Assembly: GCA_019359715.1 (NCBI GenBank) | Contig: JAHHGS010000122.1 | Coordinates: 1-34,660, forward strand | Source of the DNA: Aphanocapsa sp. GSE-SYN-MK-11-07L | GTDB taxonomy: Bacteria > Cyanobacteriota > Cyanobacteriia > Thermosynechococcales > Thermosynechococcaceae | Reading direction: 5' to 3' | Length of the DNA stretch: 34,660 nt | Shown: in pieces, positions 20,030 to 31,197 of the stretch | Position numbering within the stretch: position 1 is the stretch's first letter | Layout of the letters: each line of letters starts with the position of its first letter | Notes under the pieces: model-generated | The model's database searches: none | What the model was told of the DNA's origin: nothing | What the model saw: the letters and a program-made list of their open reading frames with translations, nothing else | Translations under genes and position numbers: made by a program

Positions 20030-23000
20030 ATGAATATCCATCCACTGCCAGCCAAACAGGGACTCTACGATCCACAGTTCGAGCATGATGCCTGTGGTGT
20101 CGGTTTCATTGTCCACATGAAAGGACAGCAATCCCACGCGATCGTCGAGCAGGCCTTAACGATCCTCGTCAACTTGGAGCACCGGGGCGCCTGTGGCTGT
20201 GAGACAAATACGGGAGATGGAGCCGGAATTTTAATTCAAATCCCCCATAAGTTTCTCAAAAAAGCGGCGGCAGCAGCAGGGATCACCCTGCCGGAGCCAG
20301 GGCAGTATGGAGTGGGGATGATTTACGCTTCACCTGATCGAGCCATCCGAGCCAAAAGCCGCCAGATTTTTGAGAAAATTGTCGTCGAGGAAGGACAGCA
20401 GGTGCTGGGCTGGCGCGATGTGCCGACTGACAACTCAATGTTAGGCAACACTGCCAAAGCCAGCGAACCGTTTATGCAGCAGGTGTTTATCCAGCGATCG
20501 CCCGACCTGACCGATGATCTAGCCTTCGAGCGCAAGCTTTACGTGATTCGCAAGCTGTCCCACAACGCGATTCGGGCCAAGCAAACCACACCTTACTGGT
20601 ATCCTTCCAGCTTATCTGGGCGAACGATGGTTTATAAAGGGATGCTGATGCCTGACCAGGTCGGCAAGTATTTCCCGGATTTGCAAGACCCAGACCTAGA
20701 AAGCGCCTTGGGGCTAGTCCACTCTCGGTTTAGCACCAATACCTTTCCAAGTTGGGAGCGATCGCACCCCTACCGCTACATTGCTCATAATGGCGAAATT
20801 AATACCCTGCGCGGCAACATCAACTGGATGCTGGCCCGCCAGTCGATGTTTGAGTCGGATATTTTTGGCGAGGACATCAAAAAAGTTCACCCAGTCGTCA
20901 ACATTGACGGCAGCGATTCGCTGATTTTTGACAATGCTTTGGAATTGCTGACCTTGGCCGGGCGATCGCTGCCCCATGCCGTGATGATGATGATTCCAGA
21001 ACCGTGGACGGCTCACGAGTCAATGAGTGAGCCGAAAAAGGCTTTCTATAAGTACCACTCCTGCCTAATGGAACCGTGGGATGGCCCGGCTTCGATCGCC
21101 TTTACCGATGGCACGATGATGGGGGCAGTCCTGGATCGGAATGGTCTGCGCCCTTCTCGCTACTACGTGACCAAAGACGATTTGGTGATTATGGCTTCGG
21201 AGGCTGGGGTGCTGCCGATCGCCCCAGAGCGAGTCGCTCAGAAGGGTCGCCTAGAGCCAGGGCGGATGTTCTTGGTTGACATGCAGCAGGGGCGGATTAT
21301 TGCTGATGAAGAAATTAAAACGCAGATTGTGGCTGAGCATCCTTACGGCGATTGGATTGCCGAACACATGGTTGCGTTGGCTCGGATACAAGACGCACCC
21401 GTTCCGGCCGCCGACCCCGCAACCTTGCTCCAGCGCCAAATGGTCTTTGGCTATACCTTTGAAGAACTGCGGCTCCTTGTTACCCCGATGGCCCGCGATG
21501 GCGTCGAGGCCGTAGGCGCAATGGGAGCCGATACGCCCTTGGCCGTGCTCTCGAACCGCCCCAAATTGCTCTACGAGTATTTCCAGCAGTTGTTTGCCCA
21601 GGTGACAAATCCCCCGATCGACTCGATCCGAGAAGAGATTGTGACTTCGGCTGAAACAACGATTGGAGCAGAGCGCAACCTGCTGAAGCCAGAGCCAAAA
21701 AGCTGCCATTTAATTGAGCTAAAAACGCCGATTCTCAGCAATGCCGAGCTAGCCAAGCTGAAGCATCTGGATGAAAGTGGCTTTAAATCTGTGACGCTGC
21801 CGATTTTATTCAACCCAGCCGCAGGCGTTCAGGGGTTAGAAACCGCGCTTGAGGATATTTTCGCCCAAGCCGATCAGGCGATCGCGACTGGGGTAAGCAT
21901 CCTCTTGCTCAGCGATCGCGGCATTGATGCCGACCATGCTCCGATTCCGGCCCTGTTGGCGGTAGCGGGGCTGCACCACCACCTAATCCGCAACGGCAGT
22001 CGAACCAGGGTGGGAATTGCCCTCGAATCGGGCGAACCGCGCGAAGTCCACCATTACGCCACCCTAATTGGCTACGGCTGCTGCGCGATCAATCCTTACC
22101 TGGCGTTTGAAACGATTCAGGACATGATTGAGCAGGGCTTGCTGGTGGGTGTAGACTACCTAACCGCCTGCAAGAACTACATCAAAGCGGCGACCAAGGG
22201 CGTCGTCAAGGTGGCCTCTAAGATTGGCATCTCCACAATCCAGAGCTATCGCGGCGCGCAGATTTTTGAAGCGATCGGGCTAAATCAGTCAGTGATTGAC
22301 AAATACTTTACCTGGACGGCTTCTCGGATCTCAGGTGTCGATCTAGAAATGATCGCCCAAGAAGCGATTTTGCGGCACCGCCACGCCTTCCCTGATCGGG
22401 AGATGCAGGAGCAAACCCTTGATGTCGGCGGTGAATACCAGTGGCGCAAAGACGGTGAAGCCCACTTGTTCAGCCCCGAAACCATCCATCTGCTGCAAAA
22501 GTCAGTGCGGACGGGCAATTACGAGCTGTTCCAGAAGTACGCTGCCCTTGTAAACGAGCAAAATCAGCAGCACTTCACGCTGCGGGGACTGCTGGAATTC
22601 AAGCCGCGTCAGTCTATCCCAATTGAAGAAGTGGAGCCGATTGAAGCAATTCTGAAGCGGTTTAAGACTGGGGCGATGAGCTATGGTTCGATTTCCAAAG
22701 AAGCCCACGAGTCCTTGGCGATCGCCATGAACCGGATCGGCGGCAAATCCAACACGGGCGAGGGCGGCGAAGACCCTGATCGCTACACCTGGACGAACGA
22801 TCGCGGCGACTCTAAAAACAGCGCGATTAAGCAGGTAGCTTCTGGGCGGTTTGGCGTGACTAGCCTTTACTTATCGCAAGCGCGGGAACTCCAAATCAAA
22901 ATGGCCCAAGGGGCCAAACCCGGTGAAGGCGGACAGTTACCGGGCAAAAAAGTCTATCCCTGGATTGCCAAGGTGCGCCACTCCACGCCGGGGGTGGGAC

Positions 23001-24616
23001 TGATTTCGCCGCCGCCCCACCACGATATTTACTCGATTGAAGACCTGGCCGAGTTAATCCACGACCTCAAAAACGGCAATCGGGAGGCCCGGATCAGCGT
23101 CAAGTTGGTGTCCGAGGTGGGCGTGGGCACGATCGCGGCGGGAGTCTCAAAAGCCCACGCCGATGTGGTGCTGATCTCTGGCTACGACGGCGGCACCGGC
23201 GCATCGCCTCAGACTTCAATCAAACACGCCGGTCTGCCCTGGGAACTGGGATTAGCCGAAACCCACCAGACCCTGGTGCTGAATAACCTGCGATCGCGGA
23301 TTGTGGTCGAAACCGATGGGCAGATGAAAACTGGGCGCGATGTCGTGATTGCGGCCCTGCTGGGGGCCGAGGAGTTTGGCTTTGCTACGGCTCCTTTAGT
23401 CACCTTGGGCTGCATTATGATGCGGGTTTGTCACCTCAACACCTGCCCAGCCGGGATTGCCACCCAAGACCCGCAGCTACGCCAGGCGTTCACGGGCGAC
23501 CCAGAACACACAGTCAACTTCATGACCTTCATTGCCCAGGAAGTACGGGAACTGATGGCCCAACTTGGCTTCCGCAGCCTGAACGAAATGGTCGGGCGCA
23601 CCGATGTTTTGGAACCCAAACAGGCGATCGATCATTGGAAGGCCAAGGGGCTGGATTTCTCCAACATTCTCTACCAGCCGCAAGTAGCAGCAGATGTCGG
23701 GCGCTACTGCCAAATTCCCCAAGATCACGGTCTGGAAAAATCCCTCGATATGACGGTGCTGCTGGATCTGTGCCAACCAGCGATCGAGCAAGGTCAGCCC
23801 GTCAAAGCCACCCTGCCGATCAAGAACACCAATCGCACCGTTGGCACCATTCTCGGCAACGAAATCACCAAGCGGCACTGGCAGGGTTTACCAGAAGATA
23901 CCGTTCATCTGCATTTTCAGGGCAGTGCTGGGCAAAGCTTTGGGGCTTTCGTACCCAAAGGAGTGACGCTAGAACTCGAAGGCGACGCGAATGACTACTT
24001 GGGTAAAGGACTGAGCGGCGGCAAGATCATCCTCTATCCGCCAGCCGAGTCTACCTTTGTCGCAGCAGAAAATATCATTGTCGGCAACGTTGCCCTCTAT
24101 GGTGCTACCGCGGGTGAGGTTTACATCTCTGGGATGGCAGGCGAGCGCTTTGGAGTCCGTAACTCTGGGGTAAACGCAGTCGTAGAAGCGGTGGGCGACC
24201 ACGGCTGCGAATACATGACCGGCGGCAAAGTGGTGGTACTCGGCTTGACTGGGCGCAACTTTGCGGCGGGCATGAGCGGCGGTGTCGCCTACATCCTGGA
24301 CGAAGCAGGCGACTTTGCGACTCGCTGCAACCAGCAGATGGTCGGTCTAGAAACTCTGGTTGACCCAGAGGAAATCAATGACCTTTACCAACTGATCCAA
24401 AGCCATGCCGACTACACTGGCAGCCAGAAAGCCACAAAAGTCTTGACTAACTGGGCCGAGATGGTAGCAAAGTTCGTCAAGGTAATGCCGAAGGACTACA
24501 AGCGAGTCCTGGACTCGCTCAAGCAGGCGCTAGAAGCTGGCTTAAGCGGTGATGATGCCCTGACGGCGGCCTTTGAGCAAAACGCCCGTGATGTGGCCCG
24601 AATTGGCGGCAGCTAG
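20030..24616 (+). CDS. gltS: Ferredoxin-dependent glutamate synthase (Fd-GOGAT)
   Basis: The 1528-residue flavoprotein converts glutamine and 2-oxoglutarate to two glutamates with electrons from ferredoxin, closing the GS/GOGAT cycle. Order of parts: class II glutamine amidotransferase with the nucleophile Cys22 (exposed after removal of a propeptide; [10 protein letters not shown]), central linker, FMN-binding synthase domain ([31 protein letters not shown]), and the [3Fe-4S] cluster at Cys1128, Cys1134, Cys1139 ([15 protein letters not shown]). The C-terminal GXGXG beta-helix follows. Its length fits the single-subunit ferredoxin enzyme, and no gltD small subunit is adjacent. It converges with fmdB, with 19 bp between stops. 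No NtcA site was found upstream. Confidence 0.97.
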
Positions 24617-24635: not shown

Positions 24636-24920
24636 TCAATGGTTAATCATCCAGGGTCGCCCCTGCGGACTTTTCAGCTTTGGCGGTTCTGGTTCGCGAT
24701 GACCTCCGGTCGGTCGTAGACCATCGCGCTTCACCAATTCGGGTTCGGGATTGGCGGTTTTGCTCAGCCGCAGAGAGCCAGAAAGCAGGATTGGGGGTGA
24801 AAAAATTCGCCTCGCTGCTGTTTGGCAGGTTGGGCAATCGGCAGGACTGCTCGACTCGGCCATGGTGCGCCACAGGTCAAAGATTCCGCAATCGTTGCAC
24901 TTAAATTCGTAAAGCGGCAT
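24636..24920 (-). CDS. fmdB: FmdB-family zinc ribbon protein
   Basis: The 94-residue protein has an N-terminal zinc ribbon (MPLYEFKCNDCG with Cys8 and Cys11, then DCPTCQ with Cys29 and Cys32). It matches FmdB, named for the methylotroph amidase cluster, where it was proposed to regulate formamidase expression. The tail is polar and proline-rich, without a fold I recognise. AGGAG precedes the ATG at 24918-24920. It follows the formamidase gene by 226 bp that carry a long inverted repeat, so its expression may be uncoupled in part. Its biochemical role is not established. Confidence 0.85.
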   Translation of the reverse strand: MPLYEFKCNDCGIFDLWRTMAESSSPADCPTCQTAARRIFSPPILLSGSLRLSKTANPEPELVKRDGLRPTGGHREPEPPKLKSPQGRPWMINH

Positions 24921-24990
24921 TTGATATTGTTCTCCTGATGGTTAACGTCAGTTCGAGGGAAGTAACTCACTTCGATGGCAAATTCGGGCT

Positions 24991-25051
24991 GCCCCCTAAA
25001 TCCCCCAATTCTGGGGGACTTCGGAAGTTACTCCCCCCAAATTTAGGGGGC
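24991..25051. repeat. Nested inverted repeat (cyanobacterial intergenic palindrome)
   Basis: GCCCCCTAAAT (24991-25001) and ATTTAGGGGGC (25041-25051) are perfect 11-base inverted arms. Between them CCCCCA-ATTC-TGGGGG makes a further hairpin. C-run/G-run repeats of this kind are scattered between genes in many filamentous cyanobacteria. Here it sits between fmdA and fmdB, and in RNA it would form a stable cruciform. No T-run is present for simple termination. An imperfect direct/inverted agtaact pair lies nearby (24961, 25026). Confidence 0.75.
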
Positions 25052-25146
25052 GAAGCGCCAAACAACAAAGCAAAGAAAGTTGTCAAGCTAACGTTCTGAT
25101 TGGATCTAATGCCTGTCAGATGGTGCAAATCAAAATTGATCATTTG

Positions 25147-26352
25147 CTAGACGGGCAGAATGTCTTTGTCGAAAATTTCGGTTGGAATTGCTAGCGTTGC
25201 ACAGGCATTCGGAATATCGACAATTCCGCTGATCCGACCTTCCACTGGCGCACAACTGAGCAAAAGATAAGCCTGCTCGCCGGTGTAACCAAACTTTTTC
25301 AGATACTCGATCGCATTTATACAGGCCCGTCGATAGGCAATATGCACATCCATATAGTATTGTTTGCCGGTGAACTCATCCACCGAAATGCCTTCAAACA
25401 CCAGATATTCCGAGTAGCGAGGCTCGACTGGGCCGGGCTTGAAGATCGGGTTAATCATGCTGTACTTGTCCATGCCACCTTTGATGATATCGACGTGAAG
25501 GTCGATAAAACCTGACATTTCGATCGCCCCACAGAACGAGATTTCACCATCTCCCTGGGAGAAGTGAATATCCCCCATCGACAGCTTGCCGCCCTCGACA
25601 TAGACGGGGAAATAGATGCGAGTGCCTCTAGAGAGGTTTTTAATGTCGCAGTTACCCCCATGCTCACGAGGCGGCACAGTCCGAGCTGCCTCGGCGGCAA
25701 CCCGCTCATAGTCCGACTTGGGCAAGGTTCCCAGCATGGCATTTTGGGGATTAGGCAAGGCAGCCAAAACCGGGGTATCCCCTGACAATCCAGCCCCGTA
25801 GGTGCGGAGGTCAGGAGCCGTTTGCACCAGTTCCAACTCGCGTTTGTTCCACTTGGCCAGCAGTTCATGGGAAGGGGCACAGCCAATCAGTCCCGGATGG
25901 GTAATTCCGGCAAACCGAACGCCTGGAATGTGTCGAGAGCTGGTGTAAATTCCCTGGAAATCCCAAATTGCTTTGGCAGGCTCAGGGAAATGGTCGGTCA
26001 GGAAGCCACCCCCATTCTTCTTGTCAAAAATTCCGGTGAACCCCCATTCATCCCCTTGCAGCGCTCCAATATCCACCAGATCGACGACTAAGATATCGCC
26101 AGGTTCAGCCCCATTCACCCAAATTGGGCCGCTGAGGACGTGTACCACGGTCAAATCGACATCGCGAATATCATCGGGGCTGTCATTATCCTTGATTTGC
26201 CCGTCTGTCCAATCCTTGCACTCGATCCGAAACACATCGCCCGGATTAACGGAGACAACGGCTGGAATGTCTGGGTGCCAGCGGTTATGCCCTGGTAGCT
26301 CTTGCTGATCGATCGGCTTTGTCAGGTCTACTTTGAACAATGTTTTTGGCAT
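25147..26352 (-). CDS. fmdA: Formamidase (acetamidase/formamidase family)
   Basis: The 401-residue enzyme belongs to the FmdA_AmdA family and hydrolyses formamide, and often other short amides, to ammonium and the acid. Conserved segments include VHVLSGPIWVNGAEPGDIL, the GDEWGFTGIF region, FAGITHPGLIGCAPS, PREHGGNCDIKNLSRGTRIY and GDIHFSQGDGE, whose His and Asp/Glu residues form the metal and active-site cluster of the family. Length is typical. GGAG lies nine bases before the ATG at 26350-26352. It follows the channel gene by 63 bp and precedes fmdB. The choice of formamide over acetamide rests on family similarity and on fmdB. Confidence 0.93.
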   Translation of the reverse strand: MPKTLFKVDLTKPIDQQELPGHNRWHPDIPAVVSVNPGDVFRIECKDWTDGQIKDNDSPDDIRDVDLTVVHVLSGPIWVNGAEPGDILVVDLVDIGALQGDEWGFTGIFDKKNGGGFLTDHFPEPAKAIWDFQGIYTSSRHIPGVRFAGITHPGLIGCAPSHELLAKWNKRELELVQTAPDLRTYGAGLSGDTPVLAALPNPQNAMLGTLPKSDYERVAAEAARTVPPREHGGNCDIKNLSRGTRIYFPVYVEGGKLSMGDIHFSQGDGEISFCGAIEMSGFIDLHVDIIKGGMDKYSMINPIFKPGPVEPRYSEYLVFEGISVDEFTGKQYYMDVHIAYRRACINAIEYLKKFGYTGEQAYLLLSCAPVEGRISGIVDIPNACATLAIPTEIFDKDILPV

Positions 26353-26415
26353 CGGTTTTCTCCAATCTTGTTGAGTTCAATCGGGCGATCGCGGAAGCTT
26401 CAATTGTGGCAATCT

Positions 26416-26964
26416 TCAGGACGAGAGGCCGCTGAAGCTGGGAACTGTCAGTAAAAGATAACCGGGCAGCCAACCGGTGAAGACGGCTTGCACAATGCAA
26501 GTCCAGCCCGCCAACTTTGAGATTGGCTTTTTCAGAACTAGAAGAATAAAAAACAATAACCACAGCACTCCCCAGGCGGCCCAGCAAAACCCGAGCCAGG
26601 TCGGCCAGAGTTGCCCATTCGCATTCAAAAACAGGCGAATTGTGACCGGAATCGCAGTAATCGCCACAAACAGCGAAAACCAGCCCAATCCCCGCCCATC
26701 TGCCCCGTTGTAACGATTCACCGCCACCCAAAAGTAAGTGAACGTGAACAGAAAAATATAAGCAGTTACCTCGAAGGGCAGGAGGTCATTCGGGGCAGCG
26801 CGGGTCGGCAAGGAAATACAGACAAATAGACCCACACCCCCGGCGAAGAAGTCCATCAGCGCCACTTCTTTGTCTGCGATATGACCGAGCAGCCAGATCC
26901 CGTTAATTAACAAGACTGCTCCCACATAAAATAGGAAAAGTCCCTGATAGCCAGTGATTGTCAT
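26416..26964 (-). CDS. amiS: AmiS/UreI family amide or urea channel
   Basis: The 182-residue integral membrane protein has six predicted helices and the family layout MTITGYQGLFLFYVGAVLLI, then VALMDFFAGGVGLFV, FEVTAYIFLFTFTYFWVAVN, and LGFCWAAWGVLWLLFFILLV with a final GWLPGYLLLT. AmiS and UreI form hexameric pores for short amides or urea. The long periplasmic histidine-rich loops of acid-gated Helicobacter UreI are not seen, so it is more like AmiS. It is the first gene of the operon with fmdA and fmdB and has a strong AGGAGG six bases before the ATG. Substrate specificity cannot be fixed from sequence. Confidence 0.92.
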   Translation of the reverse strand: MTITGYQGLFLFYVGAVLLINGIWLLGHIADKEVALMDFFAGGVGLFVCISLPTRAAPNDLLPFEVTAYIFLFTFTYFWVAVNRYNGADGRGLGWFSLFVAITAIPVTIRLFLNANGQLWPTWLGFCWAAWGVLWLLFFILLVLKKPISKLAGWTCIVQAVFTGWLPGYLLLTVPSFSGLSS

Positions 26965-27080
26965 GCGTGCCTCCTAGGTTGATGAGAGAGGAGCAGTGCT
27001 AGCAAAATATTCAGGATTTTTAATGAAGCTTCAGGGCTAAATAATTAACCGCTTAACTATAAATAGTGGAATTATTTTTT

Positions 27081-27093
27081 CGAGAATGTCTCG
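27081..27093. promoter_or_regulatory. Palindrome in the amiS / permease-kinase divergent intergenic region
   Basis: CGAGA-ATG-TCTCG is a perfect 5-bp inverted repeat with a three-base centre, extending imperfectly to TTCGAGA...TCTCGcgAA. It lies between two divergent transcription units, 117 bp from the amiS ATG and 88 bp from the kinase ATG, in an AT-rich stretch. It is a candidate operator for the MarR-type regulator at 30055, by position only. Confidence 0.4.
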
Positions 27094-27132
27094 CGAAGCA
27101 CACTTTTGCTAAGCCAAACCATCAAAATGTTT

Positions 27133-27159
27133 TGTATCGGAATGTTATGTGTCGGAGTG
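27133..27159 (+). promoter_or_regulatory. Tandem direct repeat before the permease-kinase start
   Basis: TGTATCGGAATG (27133-27144) and TGTGTCGGAGTG (27148-27159) agree at 10 of 12 positions with a 15-bp period. If the kinase starts at ATG 27182, both lie in its leader. They could be tandem regulator sites. The second copy overlaps the alternative GTG start. Confidence 0.35.
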
Positions 27160-27181
27160 GCAGTCGATAGGGGTGCAACCG

Positions 27182-30019
27182 ATGGTGGCTCATTCGATCT
27201 TGACCATTATCAAGGAGCGGCGCGATTACAACGCCTGGGTGGCAACCGAAACCCTGGAAGACTATTCGCTGCGGTTCGCACCCCGCTCGTTTCGGAAGTG
27301 GTCAGAGTGGTTGGTGGCCAATACGGCGATCGGCGGACTGTCGTTTTTAGCCCTAGAAGCGATCGGCGGCTCGATCGCAATCAGCTACGGCTTTGCTAAT
27401 TCTTTTTGGGCGATCGTTGTGGTCGGGCTGATTATTTTTCTGACTGGGCTGCCGATCACCTACTACGCCGCCAAGTACAACGTCGATATGGATTTGCTGA
27501 CGCGGGGAGCCGGATTTGGCTACATTGGCTCCACGATTACTTCCCTGATCTATGCCTCGTTTACGTTTATTTTCTTTGCCCTGGAATCGGCAATTATGGC
27601 CCAGGCGCTGGAGCTTTATTTTCGCCTGCCGCTGCCGCTGGGCTATGTCGTTTGCTCCCTGGTAATTATTCCGCTCGTCTTTTTTGGCGTGACGCTGATT
27701 AACCAGCTCCAGCTCTGGACTCAGCCGATCTGGCTGGTGCTGATGGTGCTACCCTATCTGTGTGTTGTCTATAAAGAACCGCAGGCCTTCGCCAACTGGC
27801 TGCATTTTGCGGGTCAATCGACCAGTGGAGCCGGGTTTGACCCGCTGCTGTTTGGGGCGGCTGCGACAATTTCTTTCTCGCTGATTGCCCAAATCGGTGA
27901 GCAGGTTGACTACCTGCGCTTTCTGCCCGACCAAGCAGCCAATAATCGAGGCAAATGGTGGTTGGCGATGGTTTTGGCGGGGCCGGGTTGGATTATTTTA
28001 GGCTGCGCTAAGCAATTAGGCGGTGCGTTTTTGGCCTCGTTGGCGATTAGTCATGGCGTGAGTCTGGCCAAAGCAAATGAACCGACTCAGATGTACCTGG
28101 TTGGGTTTGAGTATGTGTTTTCTCATCCAGAGGTAGTGGTGGCAGCGACAACGCTATTTGTGCTGATTTCCCAGATCAAAATTAATGTCACTAATGCCTA
28201 TGCTGGCTCTTTGGCCTGGTCTAATTTCTTTTCTCGCCTCACCCATAGCCATCCGGGGCGGGTGGTCTGGCTGGTGTTTAATGTGGCGATCGCCCTCCTC
28301 TTAATGGAACTGGGCGTATTTTCCACTCTGCAAGCGGTGCTGGGTCTTTACTCCAACGTGGCGATCGCTTGGATTGGCGCGCTGGTGGCGGATCTGGTGA
28401 TCAATAAACCCTTGGGACTTAGCCCGTCTTACATTGAGTTCAAGCGGGCTCATCTCTACAACATTAATCCGGTCGGGTTTGGCTCAATGGCGATCGCCTC
28501 GCTGGTTTCGATTCTGGCGTTCATTGGTTTATTTGGTGAAGTTCCAAAAGCGTTTGCTTCTTTTATTGCCCTGGCTGTGGCGTTTATTCTGGCCCCAGTG
28601 CTGGCGATCGTCACTAAGGGCAAATACTACATCGCTCGCCCAGATACGCACTCGATTCATCTTAGGGGTCAAACTGAATGTCGGATTTGTCAGCAAGACT
28701 ACGAGCCGCCCGACATGCTGTTTTGCCCAATTTATGATGGCTCAATTTGCTCCCTCTGTTGCAGCCTTGATGCCTGCTGCCACGATGCCTGTAAAATTAT
28801 TCCGGCTGCCATTCCCACTCACACTTCAAACCAACCGTTGTTTCCTCAACCTATCGCCACCAAAAAGTTCTGGCAGGACAAGCTCTCACCCCAGCTCGGG
28901 GGCAGATTGCTCCGCTACCTGCTGGTGTTTGTCTCACTGTCTGGCTTGGCTGGGGCCACCCTCGGTTTTGTTTATTATCGCCAGGTTGTAGCTGCCCCCG
29001 ATCTGCCGGACAATATTGCCAAACAGCTCACGGCGACTTTACTGGGTGCCTATGGCATTTTCTTAGTGCTGATTGGAATTGGCTCTTGGTGGCTAGTGCT
29101 AACTCGAGAAAGCCGTCAACTGGCCCAAGAAGAACTCGATCAGCGCAATCTTCAGCTTCAGCAGGAGGTAAAAGAGCGCCAACTGGCAGAGCTGCAACTG
29201 CAAGAGAAAGCCCAGCAGCTAGAGCAAACGTTACTCAATCTCCAACAAGCCGAAAAGCAGTTAATTCAGACTGAAAAAATGGCGGCTCTGGGCGGATTGG
29301 TGGCCGGGATTGCCCATGAAGTCAACACGCCAATTGGCATTAGCGTCACGGCCGCTTCTCTGCTGGTTGAAAAAACCGAGGATTTCTGGCAAATCTTCCA
29401 AAGTGGCAGCATGAAGAGATCGGACTTGGCCAAGTTTTTGGATCTAGCCCAGCAGAGCAGCCAAATGACGCTGACCAATTTGCAGCGGGCGACGGAGCTG
29501 ATTCAAAGCTTCAAGCAAGTGGCGGTCGACCAATCGAGCGAATCAAAGCGGCTGTTTAACCTGAGTCAGTATCTGGAAGAAATTTTGCTGCAGCTTAGCC
29601 CTAAACTTCAGCCCACCCAGGATCAAATTAAGATTGCGGTTGAGGGCGATCGCACTCTTTCTCTCAACAGCTATCCGGGCGCATTTTCGCAAATTATTAC
29701 CAACCTGGTGCTTAACTCACTGCTGCACGCCTTTGAGCCTGGGCAATCTGGTACGATTAGCCTCCGATTTAAACAAATTGCTCACCAGCTCAACCTGGAA
29801 TATGCCGATGATGGCAATGGAATTGCGCCAGCGCATCTGAGCAAAATTTTTGAACCCTTTTTTACCACTAAGCGCGGGCAGGGCGGCAGCGGCTTGGGGT
29901 TGCACATTGTCTATAACCTGGTGACGCAAAAGCTGGGGGGCACCATCTGCTGCGAGAGTCAGCTCGGCCAGGGGACTAAATTTATCATCCAGTGGTCGAT
30001 GACCGGAGTGGATCAGTGA
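27182..30019 (+). CDS. NCS1-type permease fused to a histidine kinase (transceptor sensor kinase)
   Basis: The 945-residue protein (numbered from ATG 27182) has a full NCS1 (cytosine/purine/hydantoin permease-like) body with about 12 helices at 40-480: WLVANTAIGGLSFLALEAIG, LPITYYAAKYNVDMDLLTRG, AGFGYIGSTITSLIYASFTF. A nine-cysteine module follows at 500-538 (CRIC, LFC, ICSLCC, ACC, DAC). Two more helices lie near 577-601 and 616-640, then a Gln/Glu-rich coiled coil at 641-699. The kinase has His712 in AGIAHEVNTPIGI, ITNLVLNSLLHAF, DDGNGIA and GGSGLGLHI. A GTG at 27149 would add 11 residues; the ATG has AGGGG upstream. It is divergent from amiS-fmdA-fmdB and 35 bp before a receiver gene. Role inferred: it senses or transports a nitrogen compound and signals to that receiver. 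Fusions of SLC5 transporters to kinases (CbrA) are the known analogue. Confidence 0.9.
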   Translation: MVAHSILTIIKERRDYNAWVATETLEDYSLRFAPRSFRKWSEWLVANTAIGGLSFLALEAIGGSIAISYGFANSFWAIVVVGLIIFLTGLPITYYAAKYNVDMDLLTRGAGFGYIGSTITSLIYASFTFIFFALESAIMAQALELYFRLPLPLGYVVCSLVIIPLVFFGVTLINQLQLWTQPIWLVLMVLPYLCVVYKEPQAFANWLHFAGQSTSGAGFDPLLFGAAATISFSLIAQIGEQVDYLRFLPDQAANNRGKWWLAMVLAGPGWIILGCAKQLGGAFLASLAISHGVSLAKANEPTQMYLVGFEYVFSHPEVVVAATTLFVLISQIKINVTNAYAGSLAWSNFFSRLTHSHPGRVVWLVFNVAIALLLMELGVFSTLQAVLGLYSNVAIAWIGALVADLVINKPLGLSPSYIEFKRAHLYNINPVGFGSMAIASLVSILAFIGLFGEVPKAFASFIALAVAFILAPVLAIVTKGKYYIARPDTHSIHLRGQTECRICQQDYEPPDMLFCPIYDGSICSLCCSLDACCHDACKIIPAAIPTHTSNQPLFPQPIATKKFWQDKLSPQLGGRLLRYLLVFVSLSGLAGATLGFVYYRQVVAAPDLPDNIAKQLTATLLGAYGIFLVLIGIGSWWLVLTRESRQLAQEELDQRNLQLQQEVKERQLAELQLQEKAQQLEQTLLNLQQAEKQLIQTEKMAALGGLVAGIAHEVNTPIGISVTAASLLVEKTEDFWQIFQSGSMKRSDLAKFLDLAQQSSQMTLTNLQRATELIQSFKQVAVDQSSESKRLFNLSQYLEEILLQLSPKLQPTQDQIKIAVEGDRTLSLNSYPGAFSQIITNLVLNSLLHAFEPGQSGTISLRFKQIAHQLNLEYADDGNGIAPAHLSKIFEPFFTTKRGQGGSGLGLHIVYNLVTQKLGGTICCESQLGQGTKFIIQWSMTGVDQ

Positions 30020-30054
30020 GCATAATGTTTTAATACACCTGTTTAGATCGAGCA

Positions 30055-31197
30055 ATGTGTACACTTTCTGCTCAAGATGACGAGATTTGCTTCGCTGAAG
30101 AAACAGAGCAAATTCAGACCGAAACCAGTTGGAAAATTCTGATTGTGGATGACGAGGTGGAAGTCCACAATGTCACCCGATTGGCGCTTAGAGACTTCAC
30201 GTTTGCTGGCAAATCTCTCTCATTTATGAGCGCTTACTCCGCTCAAGAAGCCACTCAACTGATCCAAGCCCACCCAGATATTGCGATCGTTTTTCTAGAT
30301 GTGGTGATGGAAAACGAAAGCGCTGGCTTATATTTGGTTAAATTCATTCGAGAAGATCTAAACAATCATTTGGTCAGAATCATTCTCCGCACCGGGCAAC
30401 CAGGGCAAGCTCCCGAAAATGTGGTGGCAGTCAATTACGGAATTGACGATTACAAAACTAAAACTGAACTGACGGCGCAAAAATTATTTATTACCGTAGT
30501 GACGGCGCTCAGAGCTTTTTCAACCTTAATTACCCTCTTAGACAGCAGCCGCGAGCTAGAGGCGAAAATTATTCAGCACAAGCAGGCAGAAATTGCCCTG
30601 CGGGTGAGTGAAATGAGCGCGATCGCCAAGGCAAACCAGCTCGAACAATCACTGCAAGCCCTGCGGCAGAGCCAACTGCAATTTGGGCAGCCAGCCGAAT
30701 TCTTGAATCAGCGAGTTGCAGAAGCAACCCAAGAAGTGCTGAATCTGCCAGAGCCAACTGATGCCTTTCAAACCATGTCGGTGATGACCCGGATTGCTCG
30801 GATGCTGCTGCGGATTACCGATGAGTATTCTGCCAAACTGGGGATTTCTCAAACCAAACTTGCCGTCCTGCTTTACCTGAACACTGAGTCTGAGCTGTTT
30901 GCCAGTCCTTCTGCCCTAGCTCTGCACTGTGGGGTTTCCCGCGCCGCCATGACGGGCTTACTGGATGCCCTAGAGCAAGAAGGCTACGTGGAACGAGACA
31001 ATCATCCTTTTGATCGCCGCGCTCTCATGATCAAACTCACCCTGAAAGGTCAGCAGTTTTTGAGTTTAATTGCTCCCCAAGACCAGTACCCCCTGTCGGA
31101 GCTGATTGGTGGACTGAGTCACCTAGAACAGCAGAAACTGAATCAAATGATCACGAAGCTCTTTAAGCTGTTTGAGAAGAAAAAGGCAGAAGATTAA
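30055..31197 (+). CDS. Response regulator with MarR-type winged-helix output
   Basis: The protein is 380 residues. The receiver domain (about 27-150) has the acidic pair in ILIVDDEVEVHN, phosphoacceptor Asp82 in IVFLDVVMENESAG, Thr113 in IILRTGQPGQAPE and Lys in DDYKTKTELT. This receiver subtype usually precedes cyclic-nucleotide or kinase modules. A coiled coil follows (160-230, LDSSRELEAKIIQHKQAEIA). The C-terminus (240-375) is a MarR-like winged helix: LLRITDEYSAKLGISQTKLA, then LALHCGVSRAAMTGLLDALE as recognition helix region and GYVERDNHPFDRRALMIKLT as wing. It should bind DNA as a dimer under phosphorylation control. It lies 35 bp after the permease-kinase, its likely partner, and may control the divergent amide operon. 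Confidence 0.88.
   Translation: MCTLSAQDDEICFAEETEQIQTETSWKILIVDDEVEVHNVTRLALRDFTFAGKSLSFMSAYSAQEATQLIQAHPDIAIVFLDVVMENESAGLYLVKFIREDLNNHLVRIILRTGQPGQAPENVVAVNYGIDDYKTKTELTAQKLFITVVTALRAFSTLITLLDSSRELEAKIIQHKQAEIALRVSEMSAIAKANQLEQSLQALRQSQLQFGQPAEFLNQRVAEATQEVLNLPEPTDAFQTMSVMTRIARMLLRITDEYSAKLGISQTKLAVLLYLNTESELFASPSALALHCGVSRAAMTGLLDALEQEGYVERDNHPFDRRALMIKLTLKGQQFLSLIAPQDQYPLSELIGGLSHLEQQKLNQMITKLFKLFEKKKAED

Follow-up and report, generated by a model that had tools for sequence, protein, structure and literature searches.

A candidate amide-sensing module in which an NCS1-type permease is fused to a histidine kinase beside cyanobacterial formamidase genes

The window, that is, the whole stretch of 34,660 nucleotides of Aphanocapsa sp. 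DNA analysed here, carries five intact genes, with fmdB, fmdA and amiS on the minus strand and genes for a permease-kinase and a REC-MarR regulator on the plus strand. Open reading frame and profile checks confirmed all five at the positions given in the preliminary description. The features of the region are the following.

20030-24616 (+): glutamate synthase large subunit, adjoining fmdB in convergent orientation
24636..24920 (-): fmdB, FmdB-family zinc-ribbon protein, 94 aa (PF09723 (Zn_ribbon_8), 52.9 bits; TIGR02605, 59.1 bits)
24991..25051 (no strand): palindromic repeat with 11-nt perfect arms, GCCCCCTAAAT, within the 226-bp fmdA-fmdB gap
25147..26352 (-): fmdA, formamidase, 401 aa (NF045496, 675 bits; 2wkn, 563 bits)
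26416..26964 (-): amiS, AmiS/UreI-type amide/urea channel, 182 aa (PF02293, 168.6 bits, cut-off 25)
26965..27181 (no strand): divergent intergenic region, 217 bp
27121..27150 (+): imperfect 15-bp tandem repeat, candidate operator (13/15 matches)
27182..30019 (+): permease-histidine kinase, 945 aa from ATG 27182, start chosen from homologues
30055..31197 (+): REC-MarR response regulator, 380 aa (REC, aa 28-138; MarR, aa 263-323, to about 375)

The identities of these genes were read from the sequence. FmdA exceeds the cut-off of the NCBIfam formamidase equivalog NF045496 (500 bits) and has as its closest solved relative the formamidase 2wkn, which it matches across 400 of its 401 aa. The fmdB product exceeds the cut-offs of both of its models, and the role of formamidase accessory factor is assigned to it by association only. 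The amiS gene, whose product has the acid-activated urea channel 3ux4 as a solved relative, sits 63 bp upstream of fmdA, and the palindromic unit GCCCCCTAAAT, present as a single copy in the whole window, may separate fmdB from the operon. The longest open reading frame of the permease-kinase spans 27149-30019(+), and translation probably starts at ATG 27182, because the distance from there to the conserved RRDYN equals that in homologues.

The region between the divergent genes had been described as 217 bp long and as containing repeats. Its length follows from the kinase start at 27182, and one tandem pair (27121-27150) outscores 99.5% of dinucleotide shuffles (p about 0.005), but the remaining short inverted repeats have the length expected by chance. 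An EM search of 13 upstream regions for palindromic and free motifs of 14-22 nt yielded no motif common to the homologous regions except the ordinary HIP1-like GCGATCGC, a result that weighs against reading the locus as an amide module. An NtcA-type GTAN8TAC site is absent from the 217-bp region, and promoter-like sites occur there at no more than chance level.

The permease-kinase can be divided as follows.

27182..28621 (+): divergent NCS1-type permease domain, aa 1-480 (AF2 model, fold match and hhalign)
28679..28795 (+): cysteine-rich segment, aa 500-538, with eight invariant cysteines
28832..29251 (+): linker, aa 551-690, including two hydrophobic (putative TM) helices and a stretch resembling a coiled coil (TM and coiled-coil features assigned by visual inspection of the sequence)
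29252..30016 (+): kinase core, aa 691-945 (HATPase_c, 79.4 bits)

By predicted fold and by profile, the permease domain belongs to the NCS1 superfamily. An AF2 model built from 44 homologues (mean pLDDT 80) matched CodB (7qoa) with a Z score of 34.0 over 397 aa at 3.5 A and Mhp1 with a Z score of 29.3, whereas the next LeuT-fold families reached about Z 23 and SLC5-type structures scored far lower than CodB and Mhp1. Comparison of the permease profile with 16 NCS1 (PF02133) proteins by hhalign gave 99.7% (E 6.9e-26, 428 columns). A single-sequence Pfam scan of the permease returned no match, PF02133 included, even at E 10, and a search of the PDB with the permease profile likewise returned none. 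The cysteines at positions 500, 503, 515, 523, 526, 527, 533 and 537 are invariant across fused and unfused permeases and form the pattern CxxC...C...CSLCC...C...C, which has no Pfam match and is possibly a metal site. The linker is homologous among the fused forms and recognisable in nearly all of them. The catalytic residues are intact in both signalling proteins: the kinase core has its phosphoacceptor His712 in GIAHEVN together with the N, G1, F and G2 motifs (ITNLVLNS, DDGNGI, FEPFF and GSGLGL), and the REC domain retains VDDE, the phosphoacceptor Asp82, LRTG and YKTK with Lys134. The MarR output domain of the regulator scored 37.6 bits, and the full-length REC-MarR protein was found in 1 of 386 cyanobacterial genomes, the window's own.

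Across the GTDB collection, the permease turned up in 264 stretches, the best 80 of which were fetched with their flanks. Amide linkage was defined as the presence of FmdA, FmdB, an aliphatic amidase or a urea/amide-type ABC transporter inside these flanks. Neighbour counts from the best 80 of 264 favour close relatives, with Pseudomonas over-represented, and are not independent trials because neighbouring loci are related. The permease-domain tree and the gene maps of these 80 show four groups. Group 1, as sampled among the best 80 of 264, consists of 32 permease-kinases from proteobacteria, most of which are longer and have a LuxR-type regulator next to them; 30 lie near amide genes (in Pseudomonas, Paraburkholderia and others), and both exceptions sit on short contigs. 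Their usual layout is a divergent ABC transporter-fmdA-fmdB operon, often with an amidase gene. Group 2 comprises, in the same best 80 of 264, 12 unfused permeases (clade support 0.999), 11 of them adjoining fmdA, a count that takes in one locus (L063) with fmdA cut by the contig end. Group 3 is the window's clade; kinase/REC-MarR pairs located consistently away from amide genes were looked for there, and all nine pairs among the best 80 of 264 proved to lie near such genes, their neighbours being FmdA, FmdB, aliphatic amidase or a urea/amide-type ABC transporter. The commonest layout overall is a transport-formamidase operon divergent from the kinase and regulator genes. The neighbouring amidase scored 711 bits against the aliphatic amidase equivalog, and the ABC binding protein beside members is UrtA-like, falling under the cut-off of the UrtA model. 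The core of the preliminary description, a transporter-derived sensor with its own regulator tied to amide use, thus gains support from the linkage of 9/9 and 30/32 loci.

Two sets of relatives weigh against the amide-module reading. At three group 3 loci (L045, L075 and L117), a REC-histidine kinase protein replaces REC-MarR and amide genes are absent locally; the genomes concerned do encode FmdA. Group 4, the sister clade, comprises 29 cyanobacterial permease-kinases among the best 80 of 264 (L028-L039, L046-L058) that lack both an adjoining regulator and amide genes to a distance of about 10 kb. Their kinase motifs are largely intact, and 7 of 12 sampled genomes encode full-length FmdA elsewhere. 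This orphan clade is what would be expected if the kinase-regulator pair stood beside amide genes by chance and controlled other things. Such an explanation is already disfavoured and strikes us as highly improbable, since the linkage recurs in cyanobacteria and proteobacteria with differing kinase cores and regulators, and random placement would bring a locus within 10 kb of a gene carried by 7% of genomes in well under 1% of cases. Co-occurrence at the genome level supports the amide-module reading. Of 386 cyanobacterial genomes, 13 have the permease; full-length FmdA is encoded by 8 of these 13 versus 19 of the 373 without it (Fisher 2e-7); counted by genus, FmdA occurs in 5/9 with and 10/134 without the permease (p 6e-4), which is a more sober figure than the genome or locus counts. 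Among the member genomes reached through loci, 13 of 15 encode full-length FmdA.

Some features are peculiar to the window. AmiS was found in 1 of 386 cyanobacterial genomes, again the window's own, so that the expected co-occurrence of all five genes across genomes was not borne out. Its closest plasmid relatives, in Paracoccus, are about 49% identical, and given this isolation amiS may have been acquired; it takes the place of the ABC transporter or unfused permease of other members. A query search of the window's genome found no orthologue of the aliphatic amidase. Elsewhere in that genome (G000:C145:19943-21196) lies a UrtA-like ABC binding protein, 49% identical to the amide-cluster type. 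The glutamate synthase gene is indeed next door, as had been pointed out, but its proposed link to ammonium released by the module was rejected: the gene is convergent with fmdB, and no glutamate synthase gene was found near other members in the gene maps of the best 80 of 264.

Three further observations concern the relatives. A member from Vibrio profundi (L113:10001-14993) has a kinase core 44% identical to the window's and a regulator with GGDEF and EAL domains, and there the same input may feed cyclic-di-GMP. Downstream of the aliphatic amidase, some loci (L041:16088-19768, also L040, L043 and L059) encode a protein pair with a tubulin/FtsZ-like GDGTGSG motif and no NCBIfam match, alongside a small protein; some of these loci also encode a CobW-like GTPase (ITGFLGSGKTT). 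In cyanobacteria, a conserved protein of ~200-260 aa adjoins the unfused permease (L063, L073, L077, L078, L079, L085, L092 and L093).

Linkage between the permease and amide genes, as read from the gene maps, thus crosses phyla, and the protein part that it follows can be traced. Inside its own clade, the window's kinase core shares 68-79% identity with its counterparts, but with the cores of groups 1 and 4 about 24-33% (about 25% for the proteobacterial cores), a value like that for unrelated kinases in the same loci; the permease retains 60-82% identity across lineages (around 65% where the cores share about 25%). Judging from these identities, kinase cores and regulators have probably been exchanged between lineages. 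Because the cores diverge while the permease stays alike, the amide link tracks the permease and not the kinase; that the link is kept with the permease despite core exchange is the strongest argument for the permease as the amide-recognising part.

At four loci (L063, L079, L112 and L119), a fused sensor and its regulator occur together with an unfused permease, which suggests that the two copies came to share the work once duplication had occurred. Fused and unfused forms have different fixed residues at twelve positions, some of which cluster in TM1 (48, 55, 58 and 59; FLALE in fused versus YxAD in unfused) and TM8 (341 and 345; AYAGSLAW versus AYSGSLSW). In NCS1 proteins, TM1 and TM8 hold the ion and substrate sites, as known from Mhp1. 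Ile332 and Lys333 align with Ser312 and Thr313 of the Mhp1 TM8 Na site through chained sequence alignments only, and Lys333 is invariant in fused and unfused permeases, so that use of Na at the site equivalent to Mhp1 Thr313 appears unlikely in either form, a conclusion that the chained alignments make a lead only. Loss of the Na site as the difference between the two forms was dropped for the same invariance. In TM8, the residues that do distinguish the two forms, 341 and 345, are placed one and two turns beyond Lys333. Proton-driven transport is reported for CbrA, which likewise lacks conserved sodium residues (PMC7096432).

We infer that transport has been lost or reduced in the fused form. 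The fused permease could also be a dual-function transceptor that signals and still imports amides, as CbrA, which both transports L-histidine and signals (PMC7096432), does with histidine; consistent with this, substrate-region residues, among them Asn338 in TM8 and a large part of TM3 and TM6, are invariant in fused and unfused forms. The fused forms nevertheless have common fixed substitutions in TM1 and TM8, the sensor loci still encode another transporter (an ABC system, an unfused permease or AmiS), and the ammonium sensor Ks-Amt5 binds its ligand and barely transports it (PMC8534201), so we regard a transceptor as a serious but rather unlikely alternative.

We consider it likely that the cluster is a substrate-inducible formamide (short-chain amide) utilisation module run by the permease-kinase and REC-MarR, and the sensor very probably lets the cell detect the presence of amides that it can use as a nitrogen source. 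In the mechanism we propose, the NCS1-type permease domain would bind formamide or a closely related compound, possibly urea, at the former transport site, and the conformational change would pass through the cysteine-rich segment and the two-TM linker to the kinase core, which would phosphorylate Asp82 of REC-MarR. The phosphorylated regulator would then activate or release the divergent amiS-fmdA(-fmdB) promoter, AmiS would admit the amide, and FmdA would cleave it to formate and ammonium. The pair might instead sense an amide-related cue (urea, nitrile- or cyanide-derived compounds, or the general nitrogen state) and control the amide genes within a broader response. An aliphatic amidase and an ABC transporter with a UrtA-like binding protein are indeed among the neighbours in other genomes, and the formamidase cluster of Methylophilus methylotrophus responds to formamide and urea (PMC10781810); the unfused permease, however, is tied to FmdA itself, and we hold this wider role to be improbable. 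Taking the formamide module as the preferred reading, we lean towards the view that NCS1-type amide transporter-kinase fusions constitute a distinct class of sensors in cyanobacteria and proteobacteria, in which cores and regulators have been swapped, the input has been kept, and the TM1 and TM8 changes mark the conversion from transporter to sensor.

In Pseudomonas aeruginosa, amiEBCRS comprises amide-inducible amidase genes including AmiS, as in the window, and is regulated by the AmiC sensor and the AmiR antiterminator, neither of which is among the window's genes in the amide region. The fmdCABDEF genes of M. methylotrophus likewise form an amide-inducible formamidase cluster with dedicated uptake, for which a putative positive regulator is reported (PMC10781810), but uptake there depends on a porin and a binding protein. 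A 2024 review describes amide and formamide use as inducible and reports no membrane sensor (PMC10781810). In the open-licence literature searched, we came across neither an NCS1-fused kinase nor two-component control of formamidase, and either may be described elsewhere. The system proposed here would supply a candidate amide/formamide sensor for many bacteria, as well as a candidate formamide biosensor.

In architecture, the closest parallels are CbrA/CbrB and CrbS/CrbR (SLC5-STAC-kinase), in which a whole transporter is fused to a histidine kinase that acts with a cognate regulator in the use of small nutrients; CrbS is a hybrid kinase, as are the proteobacterial permease-kinases described here (PMC5715377, PMC7096432). 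Unlike CbrA and CrbS, the window's protein has an NCS1-type input, with CodB and Mhp1 as best matches, a junction made of the cysteine-rich segment and two putative TM helices, and a REC-MarR regulator; general Pfam scans, as distinct from a STAC-specific model, name no domain between permease and kinase. Because its input domain is not of the SLC5 type, the system falls outside the CbrA/CrbS group. Ks-Amt5 of Kuenenia is also a transporter turned sensor and fused to a kinase (PMC5764959, PMC8534201), but with an Amt fold and ammonium as ligand. The NCS1 transporters CodB and Mhp1 (PF02133) match the entire permease domain in fold and profile, and differ in lacking the extra C-terminal cysteine segment and the kinase fusion. 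Transporter-fused kinases are few in kind, with SLC5 and Amt types in the literature found, and the NCS1 type, with its unfused sisters in like operons, would offer a natural before and after of the change from transporter to sensor, with about a dozen candidate residues.
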